NCBI RefSeq assembly: GCF_030577135.1 | Contig: NZ_JAUIRR010000003.1 | Span: 310,888-374,887 of the forward strand | Length of the DNA stretch: 64,000 nt | Source of the DNA: Sulfurimonas sp. hsl 1-7 | GTDB taxonomy: Bacteria > Campylobacterota > Campylobacteria > Campylobacterales > Sulfurimonadaceae | Reading direction: 5' to 3' | Shown: piece after piece, positions 35,290 through 51,648 of the stretch | How positions within the stretch are numbered: position 1 is the first letter of the stretch | Layout of the letters: each line of letters opens with the position of its first letter | Made by a program: the position numbers and the translations under genes | The notes under the pieces: model-generated | Told to the model about the DNA's origin: nothing | Seen by the model: the letters and a program-made list of their open reading frames with translations, nothing else | The model's database searches: none

Positions 35290-36473
35290 TTTTTAACCTT
35301 TGCAAAAAATGACGTATTACATAACTGTTCACGTGTTATGGCATTTTCATCCACAATAAAAAACTTTTTGATCATTTCTCGCAATCCATCCATAAAAGGA
35401 GCATCAGGATACAATTCACATACAAGTTTTGCTTCATTCCAACACTCTCGTAAATGCAATGCATCGTTTGGAAGAGAATGATCGATTTCAAAGTTGTGTT
35501 TTAAACCTTTTGAGAGGATCTTCTTTGCTTCCTCATGTGTTACACTTCCATAGGCATCAGCACGATTAGCGATAATGTGGGTTTTGTTATACCAACCACT
35601 CTTATCGATAATATCTATATAGGTTTTTAAAATTGACATTGAAGGGATATTGAACTCTGTAACTACAAAAATATCGTCAGCCATCTCCTGAATATCAACT
35701 TCTAAATCTTTATCTTTAAATGTACCGATATCTATAAGTATAAAATCAAAACGCTCTTTAATTTTCATGATAAAATTTAAGAAAACCTGTATATTCTCTG
35801 CTCTTGAGAACTCCTCTTTATCGGTATGTTTTTGGATCCCCGGAACAAAAAAAAGATTATTGCTCAACTTTATTAGACCGTTATGAAAGAGTTCATCGAG
35901 TTCTAAACTTTGCACACCTGCAATATCTACAATTGTTTTGGTTGGTTGAATCACGTCAAAAAAGAGGTTTGAAACCGCTTTTGTATCGGTAAAATCTAAG
36001 AAAAGCACATTTTTCTGTGGATACTCATCTGCTATAGTTTTTGCAAGGTTCATAGTGATTGTAGTTGTCCCTACACCACCGTTAATCCCCGTAAATACTG
36101 AAACATTACTGTTCCCTTTTCTCTGCTTTATAATGTTTTGAGAGTTCGTAATATAACTAATGAGTTCATCCGTATCTATTTTTTCATAGTTCAAATAAAC
36201 ATCAACACCCAATTTCCCGGCTAAAAGTGAAAAAGCAACATCATCTTTTCCCATAAGAATAATATAAATGTTGTTTGAAAAGCTGATCTGCTCAAGTGCT
36301 TCTATCTCTTCTAAAGTATCTACTTTATATAAAAGCACAAGATCACGGTTTTTATTTGCAGCATAGTAGCTGATAAACTCTTTGATGTTTAAAAAGTTTT
36401 CTATATCCGTAAACTCGTCATAAAGGTCAAATCTATTCTCTTCATAATTTTGTGAAACATATGCTATAACCAT
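35280..36473 (-). CDS. tadZ: Pilus-localising ATPase TadZ/CpaE (MinD/ParA family)
   Basis: The 397-residue protein has an N-terminal receiver-like domain without phosphorylation signatures and a C-terminal ParA/MinD ATPase domain, with a deviant Walker A GINGGVGTTTITMNLA (residues about 128-143) and FDFILIDIGTFKD as Walker B. TadZ and CpaE place the Tad machine at the pole. It overlaps tadA by 10 bp. Confidence 0.9.
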   Translation of the reverse strand: MVIAYVSQNYEENRFDLYDEFTDIENFLNIKEFISYYAANKNRDLVLLYKVDTLEEIEALEQISFSNNIYIILMGKDDVAFSLLAGKLGVDVYLNYEKIDTDELISYITNSQNIIKQRKGNSNVSVFTGINGGVGTTTITMNLAKTIADEYPQKNVLFLDFTDTKAVSNLFFDVIQPTKTIVDIAGVQSLELDELFHNGLIKLSNNLFFVPGIQKHTDKEEFSRAENIQVFLNFIMKIKERFDFILIDIGTFKDKDLEVDIQEMADDIFVVTEFNIPSMSILKTYIDIIDKSGWYNKTHIIANRADAYGSVTHEEAKKILSKGLKHNFEIDHSLPNDALHLRECWNEAKLVCELYPDAPFMDGLREMIKKFFIVDENAITREQLCNTSFFAKVKKWL

Positions 36474-36475
36474 TA

Positions 36476-38200
36476 TTAGTTGCCTCTTTGAATATTCATT
36501 AATTTATAGGTTGATGTTGTACCTGCTGCTTCGGGTTCAAAACCGTTTTGAATCTCTTTAAGATGTAAGATCAAGCCTTTATGCACTTTACTTTGAAATT
36601 CATCAACCTTCCAATTCTCTGCATTGATAACGGCATCAAGTTGCTCATCATACGTTACTCCCCCCTCTGTTGTACCAAGGGTAGGAATCATAAATGAAAA
36701 CATATCAAAAAGCCATGATGTTGATGTTTCATTTTTATTTCTCATACACCAATCCAGCCAATCTTCGTTTGATACGTTTGCCGTACCTGTTGTTTTAGTA
36801 ACGCCCCATGTAGTTTTCGTTGTTGTTGTAATATTCAATTCTGAATAGTCTGTATAAGAGGTACCGAGATCAAATTCGGTATTTGTATATATATTTTTAT
36901 AATATGTATTTTTGTTATACATAGGTGGAAATGGCCATATCAATTTTTTCACCGTACAAGCTTCCACTTCTGTACCATATACACTCTCAAGACCAAGCAG
37001 TGTAAAATATTTAAAATCAGTTACTGTGCTGCCGTCAGTTTCTAAGAAAGTAAGTGCCATAGGATTTGTAAAGTTAAAATCCAACATCACAACCTGTGTA
37101 AGTTCTTTTGCAGTTGAACCGAAGAAAAACTTCATCATCGAATCAAACATAAAACTCATAGGCTTAAACATCTCAGTTAAAAAGCTTGTACCGGTATTTG
37201 GATCAAGTTTTTCTGTAATATAGTTAACTCCGTCTAATTTTCCTGCCAATGTTAAAAGAGTAGACTCTGTGTCTTCTGCAACTATTGCCGGTACTATTTT
37301 CAAATCCGGTGCATTTGTAATAAAAGGGATGAAACTTGAAAGACCAAAGAAACTCACCCCTTTACAAGTAGAACTTCCAGAAGTGAATGTAAAAAAGAAA
37401 ACGTTACACGTCTCCTCTTGAGCAGAATCCTCTTGAATAGTATAATCCACCAAAGAGACTCTTTTCGTATTATCTGACGTATTTACCTCATTTGTATAAA
37501 TTGTACTGTTTTTTGGAATGAAATAATCTTTCTGTAAACCAAAAGTAATATTGGCTATATATCTATTTCTAATTTCAGGAGAATCGATTAAACTTAAACT
37601 CTCTGCTGTCAAAGAGGCAAAAAAATTCACAAACATCTTAGTCATAAAACCAAAAAAAGTCTTTGGTTTTTCAGAAAGATGGTCATTAGCTACCGTTTCC
37701 TGATAATACATACCATCTCTATAAACATCTATCGGATAAAAGGCATCATCTGCCGTTGTATTGTACTCTTTTGCCGAATTAAAAGGGATTCTGTATTCAC
37801 CTGTAGGTAAATCATTACCGTTAGCATCTTTTTGCAAATCTAAATTATCAAGTGTGTTTTGGTTCAACAAAAATGGTTTCTGTCCTGAACATCCAGCCGT
37901 ATCTAAAGCACCATCTTTACAAGCAAAAGAACTTTCTACATTAATTTGAACAGTTCCCGATGTTGAAATAAGCTCAAAGTTTTCCTGTGCTGTCCCTGAA
38001 CCGTTTAGTGAAAATTTTTTCCAATAATTATCTACTTTGAAATTAGTTGTCTCTATTGTGACATCTCTTTCATAAACATTATTTCCGTACTGATCCTGTC
38101 CTAAATTTCTTTCTTCTCCAAAAGTAACATTTGTATCTGTTTCTACCGCTAAAAGTGTTACACCTATTAACAATAGTGACCCTACTATTTTACTTAACAT
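36476..38200 (-). CDS. Large secreted protein of the Tad cluster, unknown family
   Basis: The 574-residue protein has a signal peptide (MLSKIVGSLLLIGVTLLA) and a long Asn/Thr/Asp-rich, strand-rich exported part. Cys-containing segments occur near residues 84-94 (ACKDGALDTAGC), around ETCN...SSTCK, and at DWCMRN. Short aromatic-rich helices (FFGFMTKMFVNFF, SFMFDSMMKFFF) interrupt it. I recognise no domain. It sits between the 97-residue membrane protein and tadZ, 2 bp from the latter, so it belongs to the pilus operon. An adhesin, minor pilin or periplasmic assembly factor (TadG- or RcpB-position analogue) is possible. Confidence 0.75.
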   Translation of the reverse strand: MLSKIVGSLLLIGVTLLAVETDTNVTFGEERNLGQDQYGNNVYERDVTIETTNFKVDNYWKKFSLNGSGTAQENFELISTSGTVQINVESSFACKDGALDTAGCSGQKPFLLNQNTLDNLDLQKDANGNDLPTGEYRIPFNSAKEYNTTADDAFYPIDVYRDGMYYQETVANDHLSEKPKTFFGFMTKMFVNFFASLTAESLSLIDSPEIRNRYIANITFGLQKDYFIPKNSTIYTNEVNTSDNTKRVSLVDYTIQEDSAQEETCNVFFFTFTSGSSTCKGVSFFGLSSFIPFITNAPDLKIVPAIVAEDTESTLLTLAGKLDGVNYITEKLDPNTGTSFLTEMFKPMSFMFDSMMKFFFGSTAKELTQVVMLDFNFTNPMALTFLETDGSTVTDFKYFTLLGLESVYGTEVEACTVKKLIWPFPPMYNKNTYYKNIYTNTEFDLGTSYTDYSELNITTTTKTTWGVTKTTGTANVSNEDWLDWCMRNKNETSTSWLFDMFSFMIPTLGTTEGGVTYDEQLDAVINAENWKVDEFQSKVHKGLILHLKEIQNGFEPEAAGTTSTYKLMNIQRGN

Positions 38201-38206
38201 TAAATC

Positions 38207-38500
38207 TCACCCTCCCCCGTTTTCTATCTTGTTCTTAACCATGATATACTCTACATAAGCATCTACGTTTTGATTCACCTGTGCTTCTGAAAGAGTTGCA
38301 TTTTGCTCTTTTGCTTCAGCTTCTATTTTGTAGCGGTACTTCACCGAAGATATCAGTAACTTCTCTTGTACTTTTTGTAACTTACTTACATTGTTTATGG
38401 TATGTAAGTTGTCATCCGATCCGCCTATAATCATGATGAACCAAAACAGTGTCATTATGGCAATTAACAATGGTACTAAAGCAGCCGAAGCTTTTCTCAT
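38207..38500 (-). CDS. Small membrane protein of the Tad cluster
   Basis: The 97-residue protein has one N-terminal membrane helix (LVPLLIAIMTLFWFIMIIGG) and a helical, charged soluble part (KLQKVQEKLLISSVKYRYK, then a Glu-rich C-terminus). The ATG at 38500 overlaps the tadV stop as ATGA, which marks it as the true start; a longer in-frame ORF from 38656 is a shadow of tadV. It could be a pseudopilin or a TadF/TadG analogue. No family was recognised. Confidence 0.65.
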   Translation of the reverse strand: MRKASAALVPLLIAIMTLFWFIMIIGGSDDNLHTINNVSKLQKVQEKLLISSVKYRYKIEAEAKEQNATLSEAQVNQNVDAYVEYIMVKNKIENGGG

Positions 38501-38895
38501 ATTTTCCCTAACATATAAGCCCCTAATGCCGCTAACGTCATAGCAGGTGCGAAGGCAAACGATTTTCTCTGCAGTAAGGCTAAAATCATCAGATGTATCA
38601 CTCCTGAGAGTGCTATAAAAACACCTACTTGTTCCAAACCTAAAAAAAGTGCACAAAAGGCACCATACCTTATATCTCCACCACCAAAAACCATACCAAA
38701 AAGTATAGGTATTATAAAGATAAAAACTACTAAACCTACGGCTATAAAATCCGTCATTACCAGTGTTTCATTACTCCACTTTAATAAACCCATAAATAAT
38801 ATCGCAGGAATAATGATCTTGTCTGGTATCAATCTTTTTTTATAATCAATATAGGAGACTACACTTGCAATAACTATAAAAAAACTTAATAGCAA
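38497..38895 (-). CDS. tadV: Tad prepilin peptidase TadV/CpaA
   Basis: The 132-residue membrane protein has the two catalytic aspartates of type IV prepilin peptidases: SYIDYKKRLIPDKI near residue 17 and GGGDIRYGAF (GxGD motif) near residue 74. It lacks the N-methylase domain, as in the TadV/CpaA subgroup. It processes Flp pilin and pseudopilins. The start is a TTG at 38895 with GGAG a few bases before it. It is the first gene of the Tad operon. Confidence 0.88.
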   Translation of the reverse strand: MLLSFFIVIASVVSYIDYKKRLIPDKIIIPAILFMGLLKWSNETLVMTDFIAVGLVVFIFIIPILFGMVFGGGDIRYGAFCALFLGLEQVGVFIALSGVIHLMILALLQRKSFAFAPAMTLAALGAYMLGKI

Positions 38896-39106: not shown

Positions 39107-39394
39107 TTATTTTGTAAGTTTACCCGTTTCAGGTGAGCGGATACAATCATAAACAGCTTTCGTAGTTTTTGCCTTGAGCACACACTCTCTTCGTGTATCG
39201 TCCTCACGCATCTGACTAATTATATTTTTTTTCTTCTTAGCCAGGACACCGCTGCCGTCAACAAGGTTTGCACCGCATTTTCCTACACCGCATTTCATAG
39301 CGGCAGGGGCTGTTTTTTTTGTCTCCTTCTGTTCGTTACATCCAGCCAGAATCAAGCCTAAAACAAGAAGGAAAAAAATATTTTTAATCATCAT
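39107..39394 (-). CDS. Small lipoprotein with KCGxGKCG motif at the end of the copper operon
   Basis: The 95-residue protein has a lipoprotein signal peptide (lipobox LAGC). The mature part begins with MKCGVGKCGANL, followed by a Lys-rich stretch and a C-terminal helix with two further Cys (RRECVL and YDCIR). The same MKCG-x-GKCG element ends the GKCG peptide at 47633. GKCG repeats mark HvfA-type copper-binding peptide precursors. It directly follows the HMA protein gene. A Cu(I)-binding role at the membrane is inference. Confidence 0.7.
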   Translation of the reverse strand: MMIKNIFFLLVLGLILAGCNEQKETKKTAPAAMKCGVGKCGANLVDGSGVLAKKKKNIISQMREDDTRRECVLKAKTTKAVYDCIRSPETGKLTK

Positions 39395-39682
39395 CTACTC
39401 TTTTGCCAATTCAAACTTACCGATAGCGCAAGAGACGAAACTTTTCGCTTTTGCGGCATTGGTATCTAAAAAATCAAGTTTCTCGTCACTCATAGGGTAT
39501 CCGAGTTTCTTTAACTCTCTGCGTAACATTTCGATCTCCTCTTCTACTATTTTTAAAGTGATCTCACGAGGCATAACATCCAAATTGACTTCGATTTCAC
39601 CGAACTGCTCTTTGAGCTTTGTTGTCAAGGTATTAGCACACCCTGTACACTTTACATTTTGTACCTGAAATGTTTGTATCAT
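39395..39682 (-). CDS. HMA-domain heavy-metal-binding protein (CopZ-like)
   Basis: The 95-residue protein has an N-terminal HMA fold with the KCTGCANTL metal site (residues about 10-18) and LKKLGYP toward its end. A C-terminal extension carries one more Cys (FVSCAIGKFEL). Such proteins chaperone Cu(I) or a similar metal in the cytoplasm. The ATG at 39682 overlaps the RND stop as ATGA; a longer start at 39697 is less likely. It may hand metal to, or sense for, the CusABC pump. Confidence 0.85.
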   Translation of the reverse strand: MIQTFQVQNVKCTGCANTLTTKLKEQFGEIEVNLDVMPREITLKIVEEEIEMLRRELKKLGYPMSDEKLDFLDTNAAKAKSFVSCAIGKFELAKE

Positions 39683-42600
39683 CGTTTCATCTCCCATTTT
39701 GCATAAATCTCATAAAGTATCGGTATTATAACAAGACTCAGTATAGCCGAACTTACAATTCCTCCCAGCATTGGAGCTGCAATGCGCTGCATCACCTCAC
39801 TCCCTATGCCGTTTGTATACATGATCGGTGCAAGCCCCGCAAGTATGGAGAAAGTTGTCATCAATTTTGGACGCACACGCTGTACAGCCCCTTCATAGAT
39901 GGCAGCTCGTATATCTTTGGCTCCGCTTACCGCCTCTTGCAAATAAACAATCATCACTATAGCTGTCTCTGCAGCCACTCCAAGCAGTGCTAAAAATCCG
40001 ACAATCACAGCTATACTCATAGAAAAATCAAGCATATAGATATAAAGAAGTCCCCCTAAAAGTGCAAACGGCAAACTAAAAAAGACTATCAGTGTCGGGA
40101 TAATTTTTCTAAGTGCTAGATAGATAAGTACCATTATCACTAAAAGTACAAGAGGAATGATCCATATAATCTTCTCCATTGCACGATCGAGATACTGCGA
40201 CTGTCCCGCAAACTCTATGTAGTAACCATCTTCAAGTTTTACACTCTCAAGCATCTTTTTCGCACCTGAGACATACTCTTTTACACTCACACCCTCTTGA
40301 GGTGTGATATAGATAAAGGTAACCGGTTTTGCAAGTTCGCTTTTAATCACCGACTGATTTTCTTTATAATAAACATCTGCCAAAGAGCCAAGCGGTACAA
40401 ACCCGAGTTTTGTTTTGATCTGGATATTTTTTACAGATGCCAGAGTATCGCGGTCCCTGTCCTCAAGACGCAGTGCGATCGGGTAACGCTCCAACCCTTT
40501 ATAAAGCATCGAGAGTTTAAGCCCCCCGACACCAAAAGAGATATACTGTAACACTTGTGCTTTTGTAAGCCCATATCGCTGCAGCTTATCTTCATTAAGA
40601 TCGACATAAAGATAGTACCCCGTACCTGCCTGATCCGCAAGGACTGAAAGTGTTTTGTCATAAGTTCTCAGTTTCTCTTCAATCTCTTTAGCATACTTTT
40701 GCAACCCTTTTGCATCTTTTCCGTAGAGTTTAATCCCGATAGGCGTGCGTATACCGCTAAGGAGCATATCTATACGACCCCGAATAGGATAGGTCCATGA
40801 ATTTGTCAGTCCAGGGATATCAAGAGCACGTTCCATATCCTCTTTAAGTGACTCATAGGTCACACCCTCTCTCCACTGTGATTTCGGTTTAAAAGTAATA
40901 ATGCTCTCAACCATCCCAAGCGGTGCCGGATCGGTAGCACTGTTTGCCCTCCCCCCTTTTCCAAAAACATGCTCAACCTCGGGAAAACTTTTGATGATCG
41001 CATCGGTTTTTTGTGTCAGTGCTTTTGACTGATCGATGCTGATTCCGTAAGGGGTAACCGGCATGTACATAAAGGTCTGTTCATTTAACATCGGCATAAA
41101 TTCCCACTTCAAAGCATTATAAAGGGGATAAATAGAACCCAGAGAGACAAGCAAAAACAGAATCAAAATATATCTCAGCTTGAGTGCATATGTGAGTATC
41201 GGATGGTAGATCACAATAAAAAAACGATTAATCGGATTACGAGTTTCATCCATAATTTTTCCTTTTACAAAAAGGAGAATAAGTACAGGTACCAGTGTGA
41301 TACTCAGCATAGCTCCGGCACTCATCGCAAAGGTTTTTGTAAAAGCTAAAGGGGTAAAAAGCAGCCCTTCCTGATTTGAAAGTGCAAAAATAGGTAAAAA
41401 AGAAACCACGATCAGTGTAAGTGCGAAAAAGATTGGACGACCTACTCTTTGTGAGGATTGTAAAACAATCTCAAAACGCTCTTTATAATCAGGTTCTCTG
41501 GAATGCTGTACATAAAATTTATTAAGCATTTTGTGGGCATTTTCGATCATTACAATCGAGGCATCTACCATCGCTCCTATGGCGATGGCAATCCCGCCCA
41601 AACTCATGATGTTTGAACCGACTCCAAAAAACTTCATAAGTAAAAAAGTAACTCCGACAGTCAAAGGGACTATAAAAAGAACTATCAAGGCTGATCGAAA
41701 ATGAAGGAGAAAAAGACCAATTACAACGATTACGATAATGCTCTCTTCAATCAGCGTATCTTTTAAAGTGCCCAAAGCCCCGTCTATCAGCTCGGAGCGG
41801 TCATACACGGTAGTTACATCAACCCCATCTATTTTAAGCTCTTTCATCTTTACCTTGATATTTTGCAGTACTTTGTAAACATCTTCACCGTAACGGACAA
41901 GCACGATACCACCGACCACTTCCCCTTGACCATCAAGATCAGCCATACCGCGACGAGCTGCAGGTACAAGACGTACATCTGCAATATCACCGAGTGTAAG
42001 AGGGACTCCATCTTTCAGCGCTACCGTAAGCTTTTTGATATCATCTAAGTTTTTAAGGTACCCTTTTGCCTGCACCATCCATTCGTAACCGTTTTTAATG
42101 ACAATCCGTCCGCCCGTGTCGTTATTATTTTTTTGCAACACCTGTGCAATCTCATTGATACTCAAGTTATACTTTACGAGTGTATCGTTTGTAACACTCA
42201 CCTCATAAGTTGGAACAAAACCCCCTATTGAAGCAACTTCGCTGACTCCATCAACACCCATCAAGGCGTATTTATAGTAATAATCCTGCAAAGTGCGAAG
42301 TTCACTCAAGTTTTTCGTTTTTGAACTCAATGCATACTCATACACCCAGCCGACACCGCTTGCATCGGGTCCGAGTGTCACACTCATATTTTTTGGAAGT
42401 TTTGATTGCACTGTGGCTAACTGCTCAAGTACCCGGCTTCTCGCCCAGTAAAGATCGGTATCTTCTTTAAATATGATATAGATCAAAGCATTTTCATAAG
42501 TGGAATACCCGCGTACCGTCTCTATATTTGCGATTGAAAGAAATTCTGAGACCAGCGGATAAGTACCTTGCTCCTCTATGGTTTGGGGAGACTGACCATT

Positions 42601-42762
42601 ATATTTTACCTGTACGATTACCTGTGGCGGGGAAAGATCAGGCAGAGCGTCTAACGGGGTATTACGCATACTCCAAATACTGCCTATGACTAAAAAAAGT
42701 GTCGCAAACAAGATGAGAAACTTGTTTTTAATACTAAAGTCTATAATCTTTTCTATCATCAT
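39679..42762 (-). CDS. cusA: Heavy-metal efflux RND pump, CusA/CzcA family
   Basis: The 1027-residue RND transporter has 12 predicted membrane helices. NTPLDALPDLSPPQVIVQV at the N-terminus, DLYWARSRVLEQL and GPDASGVGWVYEYAL match CusA closely, and the helix-4 region carries the proton-relay acidic residues (VDASIVMIENA). This subgroup exports Cu(I)/Ag(I) across both membranes with CusB and CusC. The three genes are in the order cusC-cusB-cusA with gaps or overlaps of under 10 bp. Confidence 0.92.
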   Translation of the reverse strand: MMIEKIIDFSIKNKFLILFATLFLVIGSIWSMRNTPLDALPDLSPPQVIVQVKYNGQSPQTIEEQGTYPLVSEFLSIANIETVRGYSTYENALIYIIFKEDTDLYWARSRVLEQLATVQSKLPKNMSVTLGPDASGVGWVYEYALSSKTKNLSELRTLQDYYYKYALMGVDGVSEVASIGGFVPTYEVSVTNDTLVKYNLSINEIAQVLQKNNNDTGGRIVIKNGYEWMVQAKGYLKNLDDIKKLTVALKDGVPLTLGDIADVRLVPAARRGMADLDGQGEVVGGIVLVRYGEDVYKVLQNIKVKMKELKIDGVDVTTVYDRSELIDGALGTLKDTLIEESIIVIVVIGLFLLHFRSALIVLFIVPLTVGVTFLLMKFFGVGSNIMSLGGIAIAIGAMVDASIVMIENAHKMLNKFYVQHSREPDYKERFEIVLQSSQRVGRPIFFALTLIVVSFLPIFALSNQEGLLFTPLAFTKTFAMSAGAMLSITLVPVLILLFVKGKIMDETRNPINRFFIVIYHPILTYALKLRYILILFLLVSLGSIYPLYNALKWEFMPMLNEQTFMYMPVTPYGISIDQSKALTQKTDAIIKSFPEVEHVFGKGGRANSATDPAPLGMVESIITFKPKSQWREGVTYESLKEDMERALDIPGLTNSWTYPIRGRIDMLLSGIRTPIGIKLYGKDAKGLQKYAKEIEEKLRTYDKTLSVLADQAGTGYYLYVDLNEDKLQRYGLTKAQVLQYISFGVGGLKLSMLYKGLERYPIALRLEDRDRDTLASVKNIQIKTKLGFVPLGSLADVYYKENQSVIKSELAKPVTFIYITPQEGVSVKEYVSGAKKMLESVKLEDGYYIEFAGQSQYLDRAMEKIIWIIPLVLLVIMVLIYLALRKIIPTLIVFFSLPFALLGGLLYIYMLDFSMSIAVIVGFLALLGVAAETAIVMIVYLQEAVSGAKDIRAAIYEGAVQRVRPKLMTTFSILAGLAPIMYTNGIGSEVMQRIAAPMLGGIVSSAILSLVIIPILYEIYAKWEMKR

Positions 42763-42770
42763 AAATCCCT

Positions 42771-43763
42771 TTAGTACAGATTGTTAATCTGCGTATCGCT
42801 GTCGATCATAAACAGAGCATTATTGACAACCTCATCCCCAACATCCAAACCATCTACAACTCTGTAACGATCATGATTAAGCGCTTTTACCTTGATCTCT
42901 TTTGGCTCATACTCCCCCTCAAACTCCGTCACTAAAAAACTGTAAAACTTGCCGTTTTTTCGGATAACTGCCGTTTTCGGTAAAGTTAGATACTCCTCTT
43001 TTTTACTCTCACCTACAACATTTACGTATGCACCTACCGCAAGTGTATCAGCTCTGTTTTTTAGAGATAAACGAAGCGTATATGCAGCTTTTTTCGGATC
43101 GAGTTTCGGATACAAAAGGCTTTTTTTCGCTTGAAACTTCATCCCGCTGTTTGGGTCGACAACCCTAAAATTCTCGATACTTTTAAGCGTTTGGATATCT
43201 TTATCAAACAGTTTTGCCTCAACCCATACATCATCCAAGTCAACTATTTTATATAGCATCTTTTTGGGATGAAATGCTCCCCCTAAAAAGATGTTTTTTC
43301 CAAAGACATAACCGCTCTTTGGTGCATAGATCGTAGTATAGGGCTCCACTTTTTTACCCTTGATAACAGCAGTGATCTCCTTCTCGCTTACACCAAGCAG
43401 AGAGAGTTTTTTTCTCGCACTCTCTACCATCCCCTTAGCTGCGCTTTTTTTCGCGTAATAGTATGAGTTAAGATAATCCTCTTTTGCTTTATATACTTCT
43501 GGCGAATACACAGTAGCCAGAGGCTCCCCTTTTTTAACCTTCGTGTAAAGGGTATCGACAAAGAGCTTCTCAACATAACCACCAAAACGCGGAGTTACTT
43601 CATAAATATTTTTCTCATCTACCTGAACATAACCGTAGACTTTGAGTGTATGACTTGCAAACTCTTTTTTCACACCCACTTTTTGCACCGAAAAAAGTTG
43701 TTTTACAGTCGGTTCTGCACTTACGCTTATAACCATTACTAAAAAGAAGACTAATATTTTCAT
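42771..43763 (-). CDS. cusB: Efflux periplasmic adaptor, CusB-like
   Basis: The 330-residue protein has a signal peptide (FFLVMVISVSA) and the membrane-fusion-protein layout: a barrel-sandwich segment (YVQVDEKNIYEVTPRFGGYV, residues about 45-64), a helical hairpin with YSPEVYKAKEDYL, the returning half (IYAPKSGYVFGKNIF) and a beta-barrel/membrane-proximal domain. It links the RND pump to the outer-membrane channel. No N-terminal Met-rich copper motif is seen. It overlaps cusC by 4 bp. Confidence 0.88.
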   Translation of the reverse strand: MKILVFFLVMVISVSAEPTVKQLFSVQKVGVKKEFASHTLKVYGYVQVDEKNIYEVTPRFGGYVEKLFVDTLYTKVKKGEPLATVYSPEVYKAKEDYLNSYYYAKKSAAKGMVESARKKLSLLGVSEKEITAVIKGKKVEPYTTIYAPKSGYVFGKNIFLGGAFHPKKMLYKIVDLDDVWVEAKLFDKDIQTLKSIENFRVVDPNSGMKFQAKKSLLYPKLDPKKAAYTLRLSLKNRADTLAVGAYVNVVGESKKEEYLTLPKTAVIRKNGKFYSFLVTEFEGEYEPKEIKVKALNHDRYRVVDGLDVGDEVVNNALFMIDSDTQINNLY

Positions 43764-44941
43764 CGTTTCATACCTGCCAATGCCGAAATTTTTGCTTTTG
43801 CTTTATAGTAATCACCGATTGCGGCAATACTTTTTTTCTCTAAAGAGAGCTTCGTAAAAAGCACGTCTATATATTTGAACAGATCCCCGCCCACTCTTAC
43901 TGAAGCGTTTGAAAGGTCAAACATATGCTCCACTTTCGGCAAAGCGTCCTCTTGAACAATATGATAGATCTCCCGTGCCGAATCCATCTGTGCAATATAG
44001 CTTTGCAACTCCTGATCTATCAAATACTGTGTATCTGTTTGTGCATTTTTTTGAGCAAGCAGATGTGCTCTTTGCTCTTGCACTTTTAGATCTTCACTGC
44101 CGTAGATCGGAAGACTCAGCCCCACACCGAAATTAAAAAAGTCATCAAAATTATCTCTATGGGAATATCCTACAACAAGAGTCAGATCGGGGTAATTTGT
44201 CAAATCAACCATCTTGAGTGCGGCATTTTGTTTAGAGAGTTTTTTCTCTTCAACCAAAAGTTTCGGATTGTTTCGCAGTTGCGCTTTGAGCTTTGATATA
44301 TCTGATTTATCCCCCATTTTTAAGGAGAGTTCTAAGTTTGTCACATCGCTTGCACACAGATAAGAGAGGTGTGCGTAAGCAACTTTGAGCTGCGCTTTGA
44401 GTTTGCTCTGGATAATTTTCAGATCACTGAGTGAGAGTTCCGCTTTCATAAGCCCCATGTGTTCTGCACTTGAGATAGAAGCATACGATTCGTATAGGGA
44501 TATATTTTGTTGTGTCAAAGCGATATACTCTGCATTGAGTGCATAAAGGGCTTCAAGTTCCCAGATCGCATACGCTTCAATTTTTAGTTTTTTTATCAGC
44601 TCTACACGGGCAAAGTTGAGTTGTTCTTCAAGAACTGAACCCTCTGCCTTGAGCACTCCCTCTTTTGCATCGCGTTTCCCGTAAAAAGGGATCTTTTGTT
44701 GCAAGGTGAGAATAGTCTGATGCATCTTTTCATTTGTGTCTAAACTATTTGTGCTCAGCAGCAGTTTTGGATTCTCAACATGATCGCTTTGCTCTACGGC
44801 ATAACTATTTGCCTGAATTTTTGTCGCTAACATCTCTAAAGAGGGGTTGTTTCTCAGTGCCGTATCGATCAACTGTTCAAGCGTTTCTCCATATGTTACA
44901 GCCGAAAAACAAAAAAGTAAAATTACAATATATCTCATCAT
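43760..44941 (-). CDS. cusC: Outer-membrane efflux channel, CusC/TolC family
   Basis: The 393-residue protein has a signal peptide and the TolC-family duplicated alpha-barrel: LEQLIDTALRNNPSLEMLATKIQ near the N-terminus and NNPKLLVEEKKLSKQNAALK in the second repeat, with beta-strand segments such as LTLVVGYSHR and FGVGLSLPIYG. It is the outer-membrane exit of the CusABC pump. It is the first gene of its operon, and the direct-repeat operator and promoter lie in the 67 bp before it. Confidence 0.88.
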   Translation of the reverse strand: MMRYIVILLFCFSAVTYGETLEQLIDTALRNNPSLEMLATKIQANSYAVEQSDHVENPKLLLSTNSLDTNEKMHQTILTLQQKIPFYGKRDAKEGVLKAEGSVLEEQLNFARVELIKKLKIEAYAIWELEALYALNAEYIALTQQNISLYESYASISSAEHMGLMKAELSLSDLKIIQSKLKAQLKVAYAHLSYLCASDVTNLELSLKMGDKSDISKLKAQLRNNPKLLVEEKKLSKQNAALKMVDLTNYPDLTLVVGYSHRDNFDDFFNFGVGLSLPIYGSEDLKVQEQRAHLLAQKNAQTDTQYLIDQELQSYIAQMDSAREIYHIVQEDALPKVEHMFDLSNASVRVGGDLFKYIDVLFTKLSLEKKSIAAIGDYYKAKAKISALAGMKR

Positions 44942-44988
44942 CGTTCTATCTTTTTTATAGATTTTTATGATTTAAGTATATAAAAAGA

Positions 44989-45006
44989 GTGTGTAAAGTT
45001 TGTGTA
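44989..45006 (-). promoter_or_regulatory. TACACA direct-repeat operator of the cusCBA operon
   Basis: On the minus strand the sequence reads TACACAAACTTTACACAC (45006 to 44989), i.e. TACACA twice with an 11-bp period. A -10-like TATACT follows 9 nt later. The same motif heads the GKCG operon. The period of one helical turn is typical of OmpR/CusR-type response-regulator sites. It lies 2 bp from the GMC stop codon. Confidence 0.6.
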
Positions 45007-45008
45007 CC

Positions 45009-46658
45009 TTAGCTCAATACCTCTTTAATCTTCTCCGCCACACGAAAAGAGTTTGCATAAATGGTCCATGTATAAGGTACGCTTCCCCCTGTCGGCATAA
45101 AACTCGCATCGCTTACATAAAGATTTTCGAGTTCATGGGCCTTACAGTTGCGATCAAGAACCGAGGTGTTCGGATCGTCTCCAAATCTGCATCCTCCGGC
45201 AACTAAGTTAGGCGGCGGAGCACTTGAGATGTTATACTCTATCTCAACGGCGCCCATCTTTTCTAAAACCTTTAGGGCTTTTTTTGCCAAAAACTCACCC
45301 ACTTCTATATCCTGTTTATGTCCATAAAGATTGATAACACCTACGGGCATACCGTATTTATCTTTCTCCTCTTTATCGACATCTACAAAACATCTGTCGG
45401 TAGGCAACCAGTCGTTAAAAACTTCAAATGTCAAAACACGGGAGGTTGTGAGTCTTTTATGGATCTTCTCCATCAAAGCCTCGCCCCACATTAAATTCCC
45501 CTTTTCGTCATACACTTCTTGATTGACACGGGATATGATATTTTGATGTTCAAATAAAAAGTCGATCGTCCCCCCTTTATACAACTTTTCACCCTCTTTA
45601 TACTCATACCAGTCTTGCAAACTTCTGTTAAAAAAGACTCCAACTTCCATCAACTCTTGTTGCTGTTTTTTTGAGAGCTTTTCAAAAATAAAGCGTCCAC
45701 TCCCCATCCCGCCGGCAGAGAAGATAAGATTTTTTCCAACTTGGTTATTGTTATTGGCCAAACCGTGTGGAAAGTACTTATCTTTTGAGTTGAGTAGCAG
45801 TCTTGATGTTTCAATCGCTTGAGCTGCCAATACAAAGATCTTCGCATTTACCACATGGGGAATGTTGTGTTTTGTTTTATAGTACGCTTTATTTACCCGT
45901 TTCCCGTCACTCTTTAAGCGGTATACAAAAGCATCTGTAACTATCTTTGCATCACATTTCTGCAGCAGTGCAGCCCTTGCACTCCCCTTTGCTCCGCTGG
46001 CACACCCGTAACTTCCGCAAAAATTTGAGTAGTAACAGCTGTTGCGCTCTAAGGAATCTTGAGAAAGGATAGCGCGAGGTGTCGGTATAGAGGTATAACC
46101 TAAAGCATCACACGCACGATCAAACCATTTTACGGCACCGTTTGTTTTCAGTTCTGGAAATGGAAACTGCGGAGTTGTTCGCTGCTCTTGAAACTTATGT
46201 GTAACTACTCTACCGCTCACCCCTATAACTTTTTCCACTTTGTCATAATAGGGCTCCAAATCATCATACGAAATGGGCCAATCGACAACGTTTGCACCTT
46301 CAATAGCACCGTAAGTTGAGAGCAGTTTAAAATCTTGTGGTTTGAGTCTGTGAAAATAACCGCTCATTAAGTTTGAAGAGCCTCCAACCAAAGAGCCGTT
46401 CCAAAAATTCCAATTATATTCAGCCCCGTCATAGCGGTTATACTGCCCATCTTTATATTCATTAATGATATGTTTTTGTTCATTCAGCGGCGGTGTAAAC
46501 ATCCCCCGTCTCGATACGGCTAACTCATCTTTATTGAAATCTTTTTCACTGTAGTACTCACCCTTTTCAAGGACAATAACTTTATACCCTGCACGTGAGA
46601 GTTCATACGCGATCGGAGCACCACCGGCTCCGCTTCCAATTATACAAATATCATACAT
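45009..46658 (-). CDS. GMC-family flavoprotein with apparent loss of catalytic His/Asn
   Basis: The 549-residue protein has an N-terminal FAD-binding GSGAGGAPIAYELSRAG, the GMC NGSLVGGSSNLMSG block (near residue 85) and a GMC C-terminal domain (DDPNTSVLD and NLYVSDASFMPTGG). The usual catalytic His in HxxGTxRMG reads LVAGGCRFG, and the Asn in NPxxT reads VPYTWT, so both appear substituted. It has no signal peptide. The partner subunit before it carries a Tat signal, so export by hitch-hiking is possible. The start at 46658 overlaps the partner's stop by one base. Confidence 0.85.
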   Translation of the reverse strand: MYDICIIGSGAGGAPIAYELSRAGYKVIVLEKGEYYSEKDFNKDELAVSRRGMFTPPLNEQKHIINEYKDGQYNRYDGAEYNWNFWNGSLVGGSSNLMSGYFHRLKPQDFKLLSTYGAIEGANVVDWPISYDDLEPYYDKVEKVIGVSGRVVTHKFQEQRTTPQFPFPELKTNGAVKWFDRACDALGYTSIPTPRAILSQDSLERNSCYYSNFCGSYGCASGAKGSARAALLQKCDAKIVTDAFVYRLKSDGKRVNKAYYKTKHNIPHVVNAKIFVLAAQAIETSRLLLNSKDKYFPHGLANNNNQVGKNLIFSAGGMGSGRFIFEKLSKKQQQELMEVGVFFNRSLQDWYEYKEGEKLYKGGTIDFLFEHQNIISRVNQEVYDEKGNLMWGEALMEKIHKRLTTSRVLTFEVFNDWLPTDRCFVDVDKEEKDKYGMPVGVINLYGHKQDIEVGEFLAKKALKVLEKMGAVEIEYNISSAPPPNLVAGGCRFGDDPNTSVLDRNCKAHELENLYVSDASFMPTGGSVPYTWTIYANSFRVAEKIKEVLS

Positions 46659-47146
46659 CAGATATACACCTTTTTTGGACGGGGGATGCCACCTTGAAAC
46701 TCCAACCATTTCCAACCGGCTTGTTTATTATTTCCGCCGTAGATCGGATCACCTAACATCGCTTCAAAGGTGTAATTCATAATATCATACAGAAAACTTT
46801 CACCCCACGAAGTTTTTGCAATGCTCTGCAGTAAAGATTCACGTTGATATTTTGCAAGTTTTACATACTCTTTGTGATAAGACTTGATCGATTCTTCATT
46901 CAACCATTTCACACCGTTTTTTAAAAACTCTTTATCGCTTTTTGTGATTCTTTTATGCTTGAAGACAATATGCATATATGAGATCACATGAATCTCTAAC
47001 TCTTCAGCCTGTGGTACAAGATCGTTTTGGAGTACTTTAATCGTTGCATAGGGTGTAGTGACACCAAAAAGAGTACATCCGTTAAACAAAAAAACCGAAG
47101 AGCTTAAAAAGCCGTATTGTAAAAACTTTCTTCTTGAGTTATTCAT
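46658..47146 (-). CDS. Gluconate 2-dehydrogenase subunit 3-like Tat lipoprotein
   Basis: The 162-residue protein begins NNSRRKFLQYGF, a twin-arginine motif, followed by a hydrophobic stretch and a lipobox-like FNGC. The rest fits the gluconate_2-dh3 family (PF13618): EAMLGDPIYGGNNKQAGWKWLEF is its hallmark. In known systems this small subunit accompanies a GMC flavoprotein and helps export it. The usual third subunit, a cytochrome c, is absent here. It starts 21 bp after the DoxX gene. Confidence 0.85.
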   Translation of the reverse strand: MNNSRRKFLQYGFLSSSVFLFNGCTLFGVTTPYATIKVLQNDLVPQAEELEIHVISYMHIVFKHKRITKSDKEFLKNGVKWLNEESIKSYHKEYVKLAKYQRESLLQSIAKTSWGESFLYDIMNYTFEAMLGDPIYGGNNKQAGWKWLEFQGGIPRPKKVYI

Positions 47147-47167
47147 ACTAAATATTATATACCATGT

Positions 47168-47608
47168 TTAGTTTTTATCTCCAAATATAACTCTGTCTAA
47201 GGAAAATTTTCCCGCTCCATGAGATAAAAAGATAAACAAAAACAACATATAATAAAGAGGAATTTCAAAACCGTTATCTCCTGCACTAAAACCGTGGGGC
47301 AGATGCACTGTAACAATTGCCACGATCATAACTACAATAAGCGGTATCGAAATAGCTCTTGTAAAGAGTCCCAATGTTAATAAGATAACCCCTGTTATCT
47401 CAGTAGTTGCAGCCATATAAGCATTTAGTGTGGGCATTGGGATCCCAATAGTCCCAAACCACTCAGCAACGGCAGAGATATCACTCCATTTCATCATAGC
47501 CGGTTCATAAAAACCGTATGCAAGTATCAACCTTGCAAACAATAACGCCAGAGACTTGAGATGTTCAGCAAGTCTCGAAAATTCAAGATATAGATCTTTA
47601 ATAAGCAT
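47168..47608 (-). CDS. DoxX-family membrane protein (HvfD/BufD-like)
   Basis: The 146-residue protein has four predicted membrane helices and DoxX-family marks: LLFARLILAYGFYEPAMMKW, a central EITGVILLTLGLFTR and a C-terminal SHGAGKFSLDRVI. DoxX proteins of this type are regular neighbours of HvfA/bufferin precursor peptides. It lies 24 bp downstream of the GKCG peptide gene. A redox or membrane-partner role in peptide maturation or copper handling is inferred from that association. Confidence 0.85.
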   Translation of the reverse strand: MLIKDLYLEFSRLAEHLKSLALLFARLILAYGFYEPAMMKWSDISAVAEWFGTIGIPMPTLNAYMAATTEITGVILLTLGLFTRAISIPLIVVMIVAIVTVHLPHGFSAGDNGFEIPLYYMLFLFIFLSHGAGKFSLDRVIFGDKN

Positions 47609-47632
47609 AACCTACTCCTTAGAGTGCAGATG

Positions 47633-47950
47633 TTACGATCCACATTTTCCTGCACCGCATTTCATATATTTTTTAGGCTCTTTTTTCTTCGCACCGCATT
47701 TGCCGTCACGCTTCATCTCTCTGTTGTCCATCATACCGCGGTCATCATCGTACATCATCCCTTTGCCATTACCGCATTTTCCATCACGCTTCATCTCTCT
47801 TTTCTCCATCATGCGGCGATCATCATTGTCCATCATATTGTTGCCATTACCACATTTTCCCATGCCATTTTCCGCACTTAATGTAGTAGCACCAAACGCT
47901 ACAAATAACATTGCCGAAGCGATTAAACTCATCAATCCTAATCTTTTCAT
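47633..47950 (-). CDS. GKCG-repeat, Met-rich secreted peptide (HvfA-like copper-binding candidate)
   Basis: The 105-residue protein has a signal peptide (cleavage near TLSA/EN). Its mature part is low-complexity. All five Cys lie in KCG motifs: GMGKCG, two RDGKCG that each end a 26-residue repeat, and the terminal MKCGAGKCGS. Each 26-residue repeat is rich in Met (MM pairs), Asp and Arg/Lys. The EGKCG-like motif is the hallmark of HvfA-type peptides, whose Cys are modified by DUF692 (MNIO) enzymes to bind copper. No DUF692 or DUF2063 gene is adjacent, so modification, if any, would be in trans. A shared operator links it to the Cus pump. Confidence 0.78.
   Translation of the reverse strand: MKRLGLMSLIASAMLFVAFGATTLSAENGMGKCGNGNNMMDNDDRRMMEKREMKRDGKCGNGKGMMYDDDRGMMDNREMKRDGKCGAKKKEPKKYMKCGAGKCGS
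47694..47849 (-). repeat. Two 78-bp tandem repeats within the GKCG gene
   Basis: CACGCTTCATCTCTCT occurs at 47707-47722 and 47785-47800, a period of 78 bp or 26 codons. Each unit encodes a block ending in MKRDGKCG. The copies differ at several third positions and a few residues, so the duplication is not recent. Boundaries of the units are approximate. Confidence 0.8.
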
Positions 47951-47993
47951 TTTTTATCCTTTTGTATTAAGTTAAAAACATTGTATAATTTTT

Positions 47994-48011
47994 GTGTGTA
48001 GGATTTGTGTA
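47994..48011 (-). promoter_or_regulatory. TACACA direct-repeat operator of the GKCG operon
   Basis: On the minus strand the sequence reads TACACAAATCCTACACAC (48011 to 47994), with TACACA repeated at an 11-bp period. It matches the site before cusC at 15 of 18 positions. A -10-like TATACA follows 6 nt later. A common regulator for the two operons is the simplest explanation. Confidence 0.6.
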
Positions 48012-48663: not shown

Positions 48664-50307
48664 ATGTTTTCACTAAGCCTGAGTAAACAGATAAGTTTAG
48701 GTTTCACATTGATCTTAGCCGCTATGATTATAATGGGGACCGTTGCCATCAATAATATGGCAAATGCCACTTCTAATTCAAAAGTTCTGAATGATGCCTA
48801 TATTCAAGAGGTAGCACTAGCAAGTGCACTAGAAAGAGATTTTGCAAAAGCAAGAATCAGTATGATTAAGTTAGGATCGGGAGATCTTGCAAGTAAAGCA
48901 CAATTCGACAGAAGTTTTGAAACTATTTTTAAAGAGTTAGAAGCTTTAAAAGCTCATGCTTTGCAATACCCTCGTTTAAAAGCTCTTAAAAAAGAACTGC
49001 CGGATGTTGAGGCGAAACTTGCTGCTTATCAACAAGTAAGTGATGGACTTGAAAAGCTATATAAACAAAATGAAAATAGCGAACTAGAGATCGATAAAAA
49101 TGCAGAGATCACAACTCTTAATAAAAAAGCGACTAAGTATGCTCTAGCTGCATTAGATTCTGTTGAAAAAGTGAATAAAGCAGGATTAGCGGGGACACAA
49201 AAGCTATCTGAATCATCAATAGCAGCACTGGAGAATTCATCTACATTAATGAGTACTATACTGATTATTTCTATTCTTGTCAGTATAGCTATCGCTTATT
49301 TTATCATTATGGTTGGACTAAAAAAACCATTAGAAAAGTTTAAATCAGCGATGCTGCAAATTGCACAAGATCACGATCTTACTCTTAAAGTAGATACCAA
49401 CGCTCCTCAAGAGATCAATGAGATTGCTACAGGGTTCAATATGTTTACAACAGAGCTTCATGCACTTATAGATAATACTAAACGCTCTTCAAATGAAAAC
49501 GCTTCGATCGCTCATGAGCTTTCAACAACTGCACTGGGTGTAGGGAACAATGTTGAAAAATCTGTAACGGTTACACAAGAGGCAAACGATACAGCTGAAA
49601 AAATCCGTGATGAGATTCAACTATCTATCTCTGATGCAGTTGAAAGTAAAAAAGAGATAATCCGTGCAAACGAGAACTTAACATCAGCAAGTAAAGATGT
49701 GAGATCTATGAATGCAAAAGTGCAGCAAACTGCACAAACAGAGATAGAACTCTCAGATAGAATGAACACGCTCTCAAGCGATGCGAATCAAGTAAAATCT
49801 GTACTTGAAGTAATTAGTGATATCGCTGATCAAACAAACCTACTTGCCCTTAATGCTGCCATTGAAGCGGCTCGTGCAGGGGAACATGGACGTGGTTTTG
49901 CAGTAGTTGCCGATGAAGTTAGACAACTTGCAGAGCGTACACAAAAATCACTGGTAGAGATCAACGCTACTATAAATGTTATTGTACAGTCTATTATCGA
50001 TGCAAGCACACAAATGAGTGAGAACTCTCAAGAGATTCAGGCTTTAGCAATTGCAGCATCTGAAGTTGAAGATAAAATCAATGAAAGTGTTGAGATTGTA
50101 CAGCTTGCAGTTCAAGCAACAGATTCTACAGTATCTGATTTTGAAGCAACAGGGAAAAGTGTAGAAGCAATCGCTTCTAAAGTATCTTCTATTAATGAGA
50201 TCTCAAGTACCAATGCAAGAAATGTTGAAGAGATTGCAGCAGCTGCTGAACATCTTAATTCAATGACAGAAGAGTTAAATAGTAAACTTGAAGTCTTTAG
50301 AACATAA
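48664..50307 (+). CDS. Methyl-accepting chemotaxis protein
   Basis: The 547-residue chemoreceptor has an N-terminal membrane helix ([20 protein letters not shown]), a helical periplasmic domain, a second helix ([19 protein letters not shown]) and a HAMP/signalling region with the invariant [20 protein letters not shown] core (near residue 405). The ligand-binding part resembles a four-helix-bundle sensor; its ligand is unknown. The CheB gene starts 20 bp before this gene ends, so receptor and adaptation enzymes are coupled. Confidence 0.93.
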
Positions 50308-50869
50308 TAAAATTGTGCTCATAGGTGCCTCTACAGGGGGACCGGCACATATAGAAAAAATCTTATCCTCTTTAGAGGAGCCATTACCCTTTAGTATTGT
50401 TATCGCACAACATATGGGTGAAGAGTTCCTTCCAAGTTTTGTCAAACGACTTTCACTCAAAACAAATCATAAGATTATGCTCTGTGAAGATGGACAAACA
50501 TTTATGCAGGGATGTATATATGTTGCTACAAACAACTCAAGTATATCGAGTGATATAGATGGGTTAAAAGTTCGGGTAAAGCACTCTGAGAAAGCACACT
50601 TTAACCCTGAGATCAATCACCTTTTTAATTCGGTAAACACACTCACATCAACACATAAGATTCTTGCAATTTTACTTACAGGTATCGGAGATGACGGGGT
50701 AGAAGGTTGCAAACTCCTTTCAGAACATGGGGCTAAATGTATAGCCGAAAGTGAAAAAACAGCTATAGTATATGGTATGCCTGCTCGGGCTAAAGAGTCT
50801 GTTGCGAACATAGAAGTATTGGATCTTGATAAAATTATTGAAGCGATACAAATTTTCGGAGAAAGATAA
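50288..50869 (+). CDS. cheB: Chemotaxis methylesterase CheB, catalytic domain only
   Basis: The 193-residue protein is a CheB methylesterase domain. [15 protein letters not shown] contains the catalytic Ser, [11 protein letters not shown] the His-containing loop, and [16 protein letters not shown] the Asp loop. It lacks the N-terminal receiver, as is usual in Campylobacterota, so phosphorylation by CheA cannot control it. The start is a TTG at 50288 inside the MCP gene; no strong ribosome-binding site is seen. It would remove methyl groups from chemoreceptor Glu residues. Confidence 0.9.
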
Positions 50870-51648
50870 TGTTTAAATGGTTATTTCCTAAAAAAATACA
50901 AACGCAAACACCTTTATATGAAGAACGTCAAGAAGATTTTTCTGATGTCACAATCGTAGCCGAATATTTTAAAGACCTAACGGGTGTCACCTTTGATAAA
51001 CAGATCTCCATTCTTAACTCTAAAGCAAAAAGTTTTTGTCAAAACAATAATATATATTCCTACAGAGAGTTATTAGAGAAAATCTCAAACGATGCAGATC
51101 TTAAACAGGATCTCATCAACAGACTCACTACAAATGAAACATTTTTTTACAGAGAGTTTAACCAGATAGCTGAACTCGTTTCGCTTGTAAAACAAGAGAA
51201 TCATCCCGTTAGAATATTGTGTGCACCTTGTGCTACCGGGGAGGAGAGTTATTCAATTGCCATCGCACTCTTAGAAGCGGGTATAGCAAGCAATAGATTC
51301 AAGATTATAGGGATAGATATCAATTCAGAGGCAATTACAAAAGCAAAAGAGGCAAACTACAGAGAACGTAATGTAAGAAACCTCTCCGATGAACTGCAAC
51401 AACGTTACTTTATACAAGAAGGGGAGATATTTCATCTCAAAAGCGATATCAAACAACTTGTTGAGTTTCATATTTTTAATATTTTTGAAGAGAGATTTAA
51501 AAGTTTAGAAAAATTTGATTATATTTTTTCACGAAATATGCTGATCTACTTTGATGCACCCACAAAACAAAAAGCTGTTGAAGTGCTTGAGTCGATGCAA
51601 AAAGATCAAACTAAAAAGATCTTCTTCGGACATGCCGATCTTTTTTAA
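50869..51648 (+). CDS. cheR: Chemotaxis methyltransferase CheR
   Basis: The 259-residue protein has the N-terminal CheR helical domain (LINRLTTNETFFYREFNQ, near residue 85) and the SAM-binding domain (CAPCATGEESYSIAIALLE, near residue 120, and FDYIFSRNMLIYF near residue 221). It transfers methyl groups from SAM to receptor Glu residues. It overlaps cheB by one base (TAATG). Confidence 0.93.
   Translation: MFKWLFPKKIQTQTPLYEERQEDFSDVTIVAEYFKDLTGVTFDKQISILNSKAKSFCQNNNIYSYRELLEKISNDADLKQDLINRLTTNETFFYREFNQIAELVSLVKQENHPVRILCAPCATGEESYSIAIALLEAGIASNRFKIIGIDINSEAITKAKEANYRERNVRNLSDELQQRYFIQEGEIFHLKSDIKQLVEFHIFNIFEERFKSLEKFDYIFSRNMLIYFDAPTKQKAVEVLESMQKDQTKKIFFGHADLF

Follow-up and report, generated by a model that had tools for sequence, protein, structure and literature searches.

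We analyzed a 64-kb stretch of DNA from Sulfurimonas sp. hsl 1-7 (contig NZ_JAUIRR010000003.1, positions 310,888 to 374,887), hereafter called the window, for a group of genes in which a peptide with repeated GKCG motifs lies next to a membrane protein of the HvfX family, a flavoprotein of the GMC family and a copper-type efflux pump. Nine minus-strand genes in a particular order had been proposed in the first-pass annotation; the coordinates of the open reading frames (ORFs) confirmed the order, and the families were assigned by Pfam and NCBIfam scans. From the first gene to the last, they are as follows.

47633..47950, minus strand: GKCG precursor peptide, 105 aa, with five KCG motifs and, by eye, a Sec-type N-terminus (NCBIfam KCGExKCG precursor-domain model NF050137, 24.7 bits, cut-off 19.5)
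47168..47608, minus strand: HvfX/DoxX membrane protein, 146 aa (NCBIfam NF050144, 125.8 bits, cut-off 80; Pfam DoxX, 69 bits)
46658..47146, minus strand: gluconate 2-dehydrogenase subunit 3 family protein (S3), 162 aa (Pfam PF13618, 51.8 bits, cut-off 23.4)
45009..46658, minus strand: non-canonical GMC flavoprotein, 549 aa (Pfam GMC_oxred_C, 68.2 bits; GMC_oxred_N, 45.6 bits)
43760..44941, minus strand: TolC/CusC-like outer membrane channel, 393 aa (Pfam OEP, 82.9 bits)
42771..43763, minus strand: CusB/CzcB-like adaptor, 330 aa (Pfam HlyD_D23, 173.6 bits)
39679..42762, minus strand: CusA-type RND pump, 1027 aa (TIGR00914, 998.3 bits, cut-off 701.45)
39395..39697, minus strand: HMA-domain protein, 100 aa, with a CTGC motif (Pfam HMA, 25.3 bits, cut-off 24.8)
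39107..39394, minus strand: lipoprotein-like peptide, 95 aa, with the motif MKCGVGKCG and no Pfam or NCBIfam match above cut-off

The gaps between these genes measure 24 nt (GKCG peptide to HvfX), 21 nt (HvfX to S3), 67 nt (GMC to TolC), 8 nt (CusB to CusA) and 0 nt (HMA protein to lipoprotein), and overlaps of 1, 4 and 19 nt are found at S3/GMC, TolC/CusB and CusA/HMA, respectively. Since no gap exceeds 67 nt and several genes overlap, a single operon is likely. The ATG at 46658, which shares one base with the S3 stop codon, is most likely the start of the GMC gene, rather than an upstream TTG. The coding part (39107-47950) is preceded by a leader (47951-48011) that is partly common to a divergent plus-strand gene starting at 48005. 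Promoter-like signals numbered 23 (24.3 expected) and terminator-like ones 8 (6.1 expected), none of the former lying within 47951-48004.

The precursor peptide fails the HvfA equivalog model NF050188 (20.8 bits vs. a cut-off of 95). The N-terminus of S3 is of the twin-arginine translocation (Tat) type (SRRKFL) and looks lipoprotein-like by eye. When compared with solved structures by score, the pump reaches 940 bits with CusA and 455 bits with ZneA; the adaptor reaches 105.6 bits with the CusB model and 106.2 bits with the CzcB model, each under its cut-off. Within the 64-kb window, ORFs of at least 45 aa with at least two KC[GSA] motifs are confined to the two operon peptides, which argues against a chance origin; the other 53 kb contain no ORF of at least 40 aa with at least two such motifs. 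KCG lipoproteins resembling the last gene adjoin HMA/CusA genes in five further loci (L197, L200, L203, L206, and L207).

Distribution of GMC/S3 and MNIO in Campylobacterales

GKCG peptides are known from the HvfA/oxazolin system, in which HvfB, an enzyme of the MNIO family, together with HvfC performs a four-electron oxidation of HvfA cysteines to 5-thiooxazoles using O2 and favors a precursor still bearing its signal peptide (PMC13419390). The MNIO enzyme and its DUF2063 partner had been reported missing from our operon, with the GMC/S3 pair in their place. The absence holds genome-wide: Pfam searches of the whole genome, which is 99.99% complete, gave 0 matches for MNIO (PF05114) and 0 for DUF2063 (PF09836), while the same searches, used on control genomes as positive controls, found MNIO in 2/14 and DUF2063 in 1/14. 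The idea of a substitution also stands, as GMC/S3 was found in many genera with a distribution largely complementary to that of MNIO; the arrangement recurs in many genomes, so its gene order is not peculiar to this one.

The survey comprised 298 Campylobacterales genomes drawn from a larger group. HvfX exceeded its cut-off in 63 genomes and MNIO in 27, Gluconate_2-dh3 was present in 67 (five being of the gluconate type discussed below), and a GMC model built from 26 relatives matched 70 at E 1e-100 or better. Among the 47 genomes with a GKCG precursor above cut-off, 27 carry GMC/S3 only, 12 MNIO only, four both and four neither (Fisher p 4e-5, with kinship ignored and genomes labeled by GMC model or S3). 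An earlier label based on S3 by Pfam, which leaves out genome G125, gave two genomes with both enzymes and p 1e-6; we adopted the weaker figures of the fuller label (4; 4e-5), with G125 included. The four genomes with neither enzyme are 57, 65, 79, and 84% complete, and in one of them (G196), KCG peptides adjoin an incomplete S3 at the edge of a contig (L103). MNIO or GMC/S3 is present in 37/37 precursor genomes at least 85% complete and in 54/251 genomes without precursor. The 63 HvfX genomes divide into 40 with GMC/S3 only, 14 with MNIO only, three with both and six with neither (Fisher p 5e-7, kinship ignored). By genus, 24 genera have a precursor: eight with MNIO only, seven with GMC/S3 only, three with both in one genome, two with each type in separate genomes and four involving a genome with neither. 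The genera g9, g25, g57, and g65 each include genomes of the GMC/S3 type and separate ones of the MNIO type.

At the level of loci, 78 places with HvfX above cut-off were found to have S3 within 6 kb in 24 cases, MNIO in 13, both in none and neither in 41; several of these 41 lie near contig ends and others have no KCG peptide seen alongside. The same radius around 57 precursor genes (G125 left out) gave S3 for 16, MNIO for 16 and both for none. In 121 distinct non-canonical GMC-S3 loci, a set that excludes GMCs with identical ends and overlaps in species with the 80 relatives mentioned below, a KCG peptide lies within 5 kb in 69, HvfX in 49, CusA/CusB in 15 and MNIO in one. Where at least 3 kb of sequence is available on the S3 side, a KCG peptide is present in 60/99, a count that misses very short precursors such as the 29-aa ORF in L157. 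The S3-GMC pair is either co-directional, as in the window, or divergent from the peptide. In addition, one genome from each of 84,980 species was scanned, which yielded 557 stretches with the pattern, 495 of them encoding relatives. Among the best 80 of these 495, S3 was found in 79, a KCG peptide in 43, HvfX in 29, CusA/CusB in 12 and MNIO in one (L201); their titles are Sulfurimonas, Sulfuricurvum, Helicobacteraceae, Campylobacterales and the like, a few stating 'bacterium' only, and the nearest named relatives of the window GMC among them are Sulfurimonas.

Evidence for an exchange of the two enzyme types at matching sites came from two of four comparisons between GMC and MNIO loci. In genus g25, the GMC locus L127 and the MNIO locus L144 have in common HvfX, then a response regulator, then a kinase (60, 61, and 46% identity, respectively); ahead of HvfX, L144 has the order KCG peptide, MNIO and a gene of the c8 cluster (as scanned in L140, a DUF2063 gene), while L127 has the KCG peptide, with S3-GMC divergent. 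L126 (GMC) and L140 (MNIO), from different families of the order, have the upstream amidohydrolase, ExbB and ExbD genes in common (42-77% identity), and their HvfX proteins are 66% identical. Related regulators were also found in several loci: the one beside a plasmid-borne GMC module is 59-62% identical to those of the MNIO loci L143, L145, and L146 and 43% to that of L144, and the regulators adjoining GMC/S3 in L155 and L185 have 44-48% identity with MNIO-side ones. The plasmid in question, pSulSP of Sulfurospirillum sp. 'SP' (L269), encodes S3, GMC, a two-component system and a 73-aa peptide that contains three KCG motifs, with no MNIO on the plasmid; the module also adjoins genes for MsrP and a ferric-reductase-like protein, amid transposase genes. 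This pair may be set beside the oxidored_molybd and ferric-reductase genes included in a few MNIO-type Buf_EGKCG clusters (PMC12452194). A specific role of the two-component system as a copper sensor was considered and dropped, since the scanned proteins match many regulators and kinases, heavy-metal ones included, all below cut-off.

Two further features of HvfX loci were observed. A Glu_synthase-family protein of about 580 aa (c5 cluster, 20 members; e.g., L147:6034-7803) is frequently encoded after HvfX, whether the locus is of the GMC type, the MNIO type or another, and is absent from the window operon. In L175 (6896-7039), the KCG peptide and S3 are separated by a 47-48 aa fragment of HvfX, which may be all that is left of a former HvfX gene.

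The GMC flavoprotein and its S3 partner

The nearest solved relatives of the window GMC are FAD glucose dehydrogenase (GDH) and fructose dehydrogenase (FDH), which also provide the best folds for its predicted model (Foldseek E about 1e-39 to 1e-37). In the alignment, L485 falls on the Ala of the FDH H1147A chain, N484 on the Asn before it and P528 on the Ala of the N1190A chain, i.e., the positions of the catalytic His and the second Asn (FDH H1147 and N1190) are occupied by Leu and Pro. Across 139 GMC proteins, the His position is Leu in 130 and Ile in one; the remaining eight comprise five gluconate-type proteins and three plasmid proteins chosen as outgroup, all carrying His in that stretch. 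C208, C214, and C219 are found at the cluster positions, aligned with GDH cysteines that we take to bind the 3Fe-4S cluster of that enzyme, and three cysteines are present in 138/139 GMCs. Furthermore, 124 invariant columns were counted in an alignment of 26 diverse members. Given that the rest of the protein is strongly conserved despite the replaced His and Asn, selection has maintained it, while its active site has been rebuilt. The 131 His-less sequences form one group on a long branch in the GMC tree (0.86), with a node support of just 0.152 after re-rooting, so this grouping rests on the alignment and not on the tree. Judged by its residues, the GMC is a distinct subfamily that has kept the dehydrogenase fold and the cluster cysteines and lost the usual catalytic His and Asn. 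An ordinary gluconate dehydrogenase was rejected as the leading interpretation because His and Asn, both retained in the five gluconate-type loci, have been replaced in this subfamily.

S3 carries a strict twin-arginine motif in 129/140 proteins, duplicates and gluconate-type proteins counted, and its sequence had no match among solved structures at E up to 1. The predicted structure of HvfX (mean predicted local distance difference test score 84.9) had no fold match with E ≤0.001; NACHO/TMEM35A came first, with E 0.5.

Proposed role of the module and alternative explanations

On sequence grounds, the GKCG precursor, HvfX and GMC/S3 form a recurring module in which GMC/S3 stands in for MNIO and DUF2063. 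That it replaces them functionally in a GKCG system is very probable and well supported by the absence of MNIO and DUF2063, the largely complementary distribution, the shared HvfX, regulators and sites, and the plasmid module without MNIO. In the mechanism that we propose, the peptide would be exported by Sec or as a lipoprotein and S3 would carry the folded GMC through Tat; the periplasmic GMC would take electrons from the GKCG cysteines, and its Fe-S cluster would pass these on to the respiratory chain, with HvfX as a possible intermediary. The outcome would be an oxidized copper-binding peptide made with no need for O2, which would buffer periplasmic copper and, in this genome, hand it to CusCBA. 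Oxidation of the peptide cysteines by GMC is a plausible step to which we give slightly less than even odds; in its favor, HMFO, a GMC oxidase, has reported activity on primary thiols (PMC7414962). Taken as a whole, with this chemistry, the view that the locus is a form of the HvfA/oxazolin (Buf_EGKCG) copper-peptide system that does without MNIO, and is here coupled to Cus, is in our judgment evenly poised. We regard as tentative the stronger proposal that GMC/S3 represents a new class of peptide-modifying enzyme, namely a periplasmic, O2-independent flavin/Fe-S dehydrogenase that would turn the cysteines of exported GKCG peptides into thiooxazole-like groups, or thio groups of another kind, as an analogue of the O2-dependent MNIO.

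A role in copper handling is suggested by the CusA type of the pump, the Cus genes near 15/121 GMC-S3 loci, the presence in L155, next to GMC/S3, of a P-type ATPase carrying YHS and heavy-metal-binding domains, and the known GKCG systems. The tie to efflux seen in the first-pass annotation was thus borne out in part: CusABC does adjoin the module here, but this is a minority arrangement, and efflux therefore lies outside the core module. As a separate observation, L155 also encodes (6393-6836) a KCGAGKCG segment fused to a YtkA-like domain, adjoining GMC/S3, the P-type ATPase, a cation efflux protein and a two-component system. Beyond the operon, the window has minus-strand genes for an AAA_31 ATPase and a type IV leader peptidase (35280-38895; pilus assembly by eye) on one flank and plus-strand chemoreceptor, CheB and CheR genes (48664-51648) on the other.

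Several observations weigh against the proposed replacement and its chemistry. No KCG peptide lies within 5 kb in 52/121 GMC-S3 loci, and 25/57 precursor genes lack both S3 and MNIO within a 6-kb radius, so that some precursors would have to work in trans. Four genomes have both enzyme types, and over all 298 genomes the lack of overlap is not striking (both in 4 vs. 6.7 expected), while the P values are not corrected for kinship. One locus was seen with both types: L201, a contig of a Sulfurimonas metagenome-assembled genome, carries MNIO (confirmed by Pfam), GMC/S3 and a KCG peptide in a stretch of about 6 kb. Two of the four locus comparisons showed no shared site: L112 (GMC) and L273 (MNIO) have nothing in common beyond HvfX and a pair of weak paralogues (27 and 38% identity), and L274 and L275 share nothing at cut-off. 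In one case of four (L175), the GMC-side regulator is unrelated to the MNIO-side ones (29-33% identity; unrelated control 27-33%). The cysteine loop and residues 522-528 are poorly modeled, with low confidence, in the predicted GMC structure. Finally, the reported thiol reaction of HMFO has His as the base (PMC7414962), and this is the His that the GMC here has lost. A peptide thiolate may do without a base; the missing His can equally mean that thiol chemistry has been lost.

The loss of the His and Asn of GMC alcohol chemistry also fits a different explanation, in which the GKCG peptides are unmodified, metallothionein-like buffers and GMC/S3 is a periplasmic redox partner, keeping the redox state of thiols, disulfides or copper under control and having no part in maturation. 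Many precursors look lipoprotein-like or Sec-exported by eye, and the pSulSP module adjoins the redox repair genes for MsrP and the ferric-reductase-like protein, both of which would suit such a role. However, GMC/S3 is found in genomes lacking the maturation enzyme MNIO and, for the most part, not in those that have it, and GMC and MNIO types have similar precursors and HvfX; we consider this explanation possible, though on the unlikely side. It is improbable that GMC/S3 is a common sugar or acid dehydrogenase of the periplasm whose position beside the peptide is accidental. The families are indeed the same (PF13618 and GMC), glucose and fructose dehydrogenases are the nearest solved relatives, and Cj0414/Cj0415 of C. 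jejuni is a gluconate dehydrogenase of this kind (PMC4178425). Nevertheless, the five gluconate-type loci, presumably of the Cj0414/Cj0415 type, keep His and Asn and have nearby neither a KCG peptide (0/5) nor HvfX (0/5), whereas the KCG-linked subfamily has lost both residues, and the link is seen again in numerous genera, with either orientation, as well as on a plasmid.

Where precursors occur without MNIO, the published explanation is that the peptides require no modification or are dead (PMC12452194). That the peptides of MNIO-free genomes are leftovers, unexpressed or non-functional, as thus presumed in print for Buf_EGKCG precursors, seems very improbable to us, given that every one of the more complete precursor genomes has one enzyme or the other and that the module recurs intact, is carried on a plasmid and includes a GMC with so many invariant columns. 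MNIO-free precursor genomes are instead a patterned group, nearly always with one flavoenzyme subfamily of rebuilt active site. In the literature surveyed, MNIO is the sole described route to GKCG copper peptides. Neither 'GMC' nor 'gluconate' occurs in the main text of PMC12452194, and a search of titles and abstract openings, with subscription papers mostly outside it, found no paper describing the association of GKCG peptides and HvfX with GMC/S3. The proposed replacement of MNIO by GMC/S3 makes the fate of GKCG peptides where O2 is scarce a testable question and offers a hypothesis for a GMC subfamily that a public record labels merely 'GMC family oxidoreductase'. If GMC modifies the peptide, metal-binding ribosomally synthesized and post-translationally modified peptides of this kind would have a second chemistry, unrelated to the first; if the oxidation is O2-independent, anaerobic and microaerobic Campylobacterota could build such copper-binding peptides.

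Comparison with known systems

With the HvfA-HvfB-HvfC-HvfX oxazolin (Buf_EGKCG) system, the window operon has in common a GKCG-repeat precursor with a signal sequence and an HvfX-family membrane protein, and several loci also have related two-component regulators. Unlike that system, it has no MNIO (HvfB) and no DUF2063 (HvfC), and contains a Tat-borne S3 and a non-canonical GMC instead. The FAD GDH of B. cepacia and the FDH of G. japonicus resemble the pair in fold, in the three cluster cysteines and in a PF13618-kind small subunit, which we take to be the partner subunit in GDH. However, His1147 and Asn1190 (FDH numbering) are Leu and Pro here, and none of the nine operon genes was assigned to cytochrome c. 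The Campylobacter gluconate dehydrogenase of the Cj0414/Cj0415 type, also from Campylobacterales, is likewise encoded by an S3 and GMC gene pair, but it differs from the window system in both the retained residues and the gene neighborhood, as described above for the five loci. As regards CusCBA, the pump is a CusA by score, and three aligned positions, presumably those of the CusA Met triad, are conserved as Met; in contrast, the adaptor scores CusB and CzcB near equally, and CusA is followed by an HMA protein and a KCG lipoprotein.

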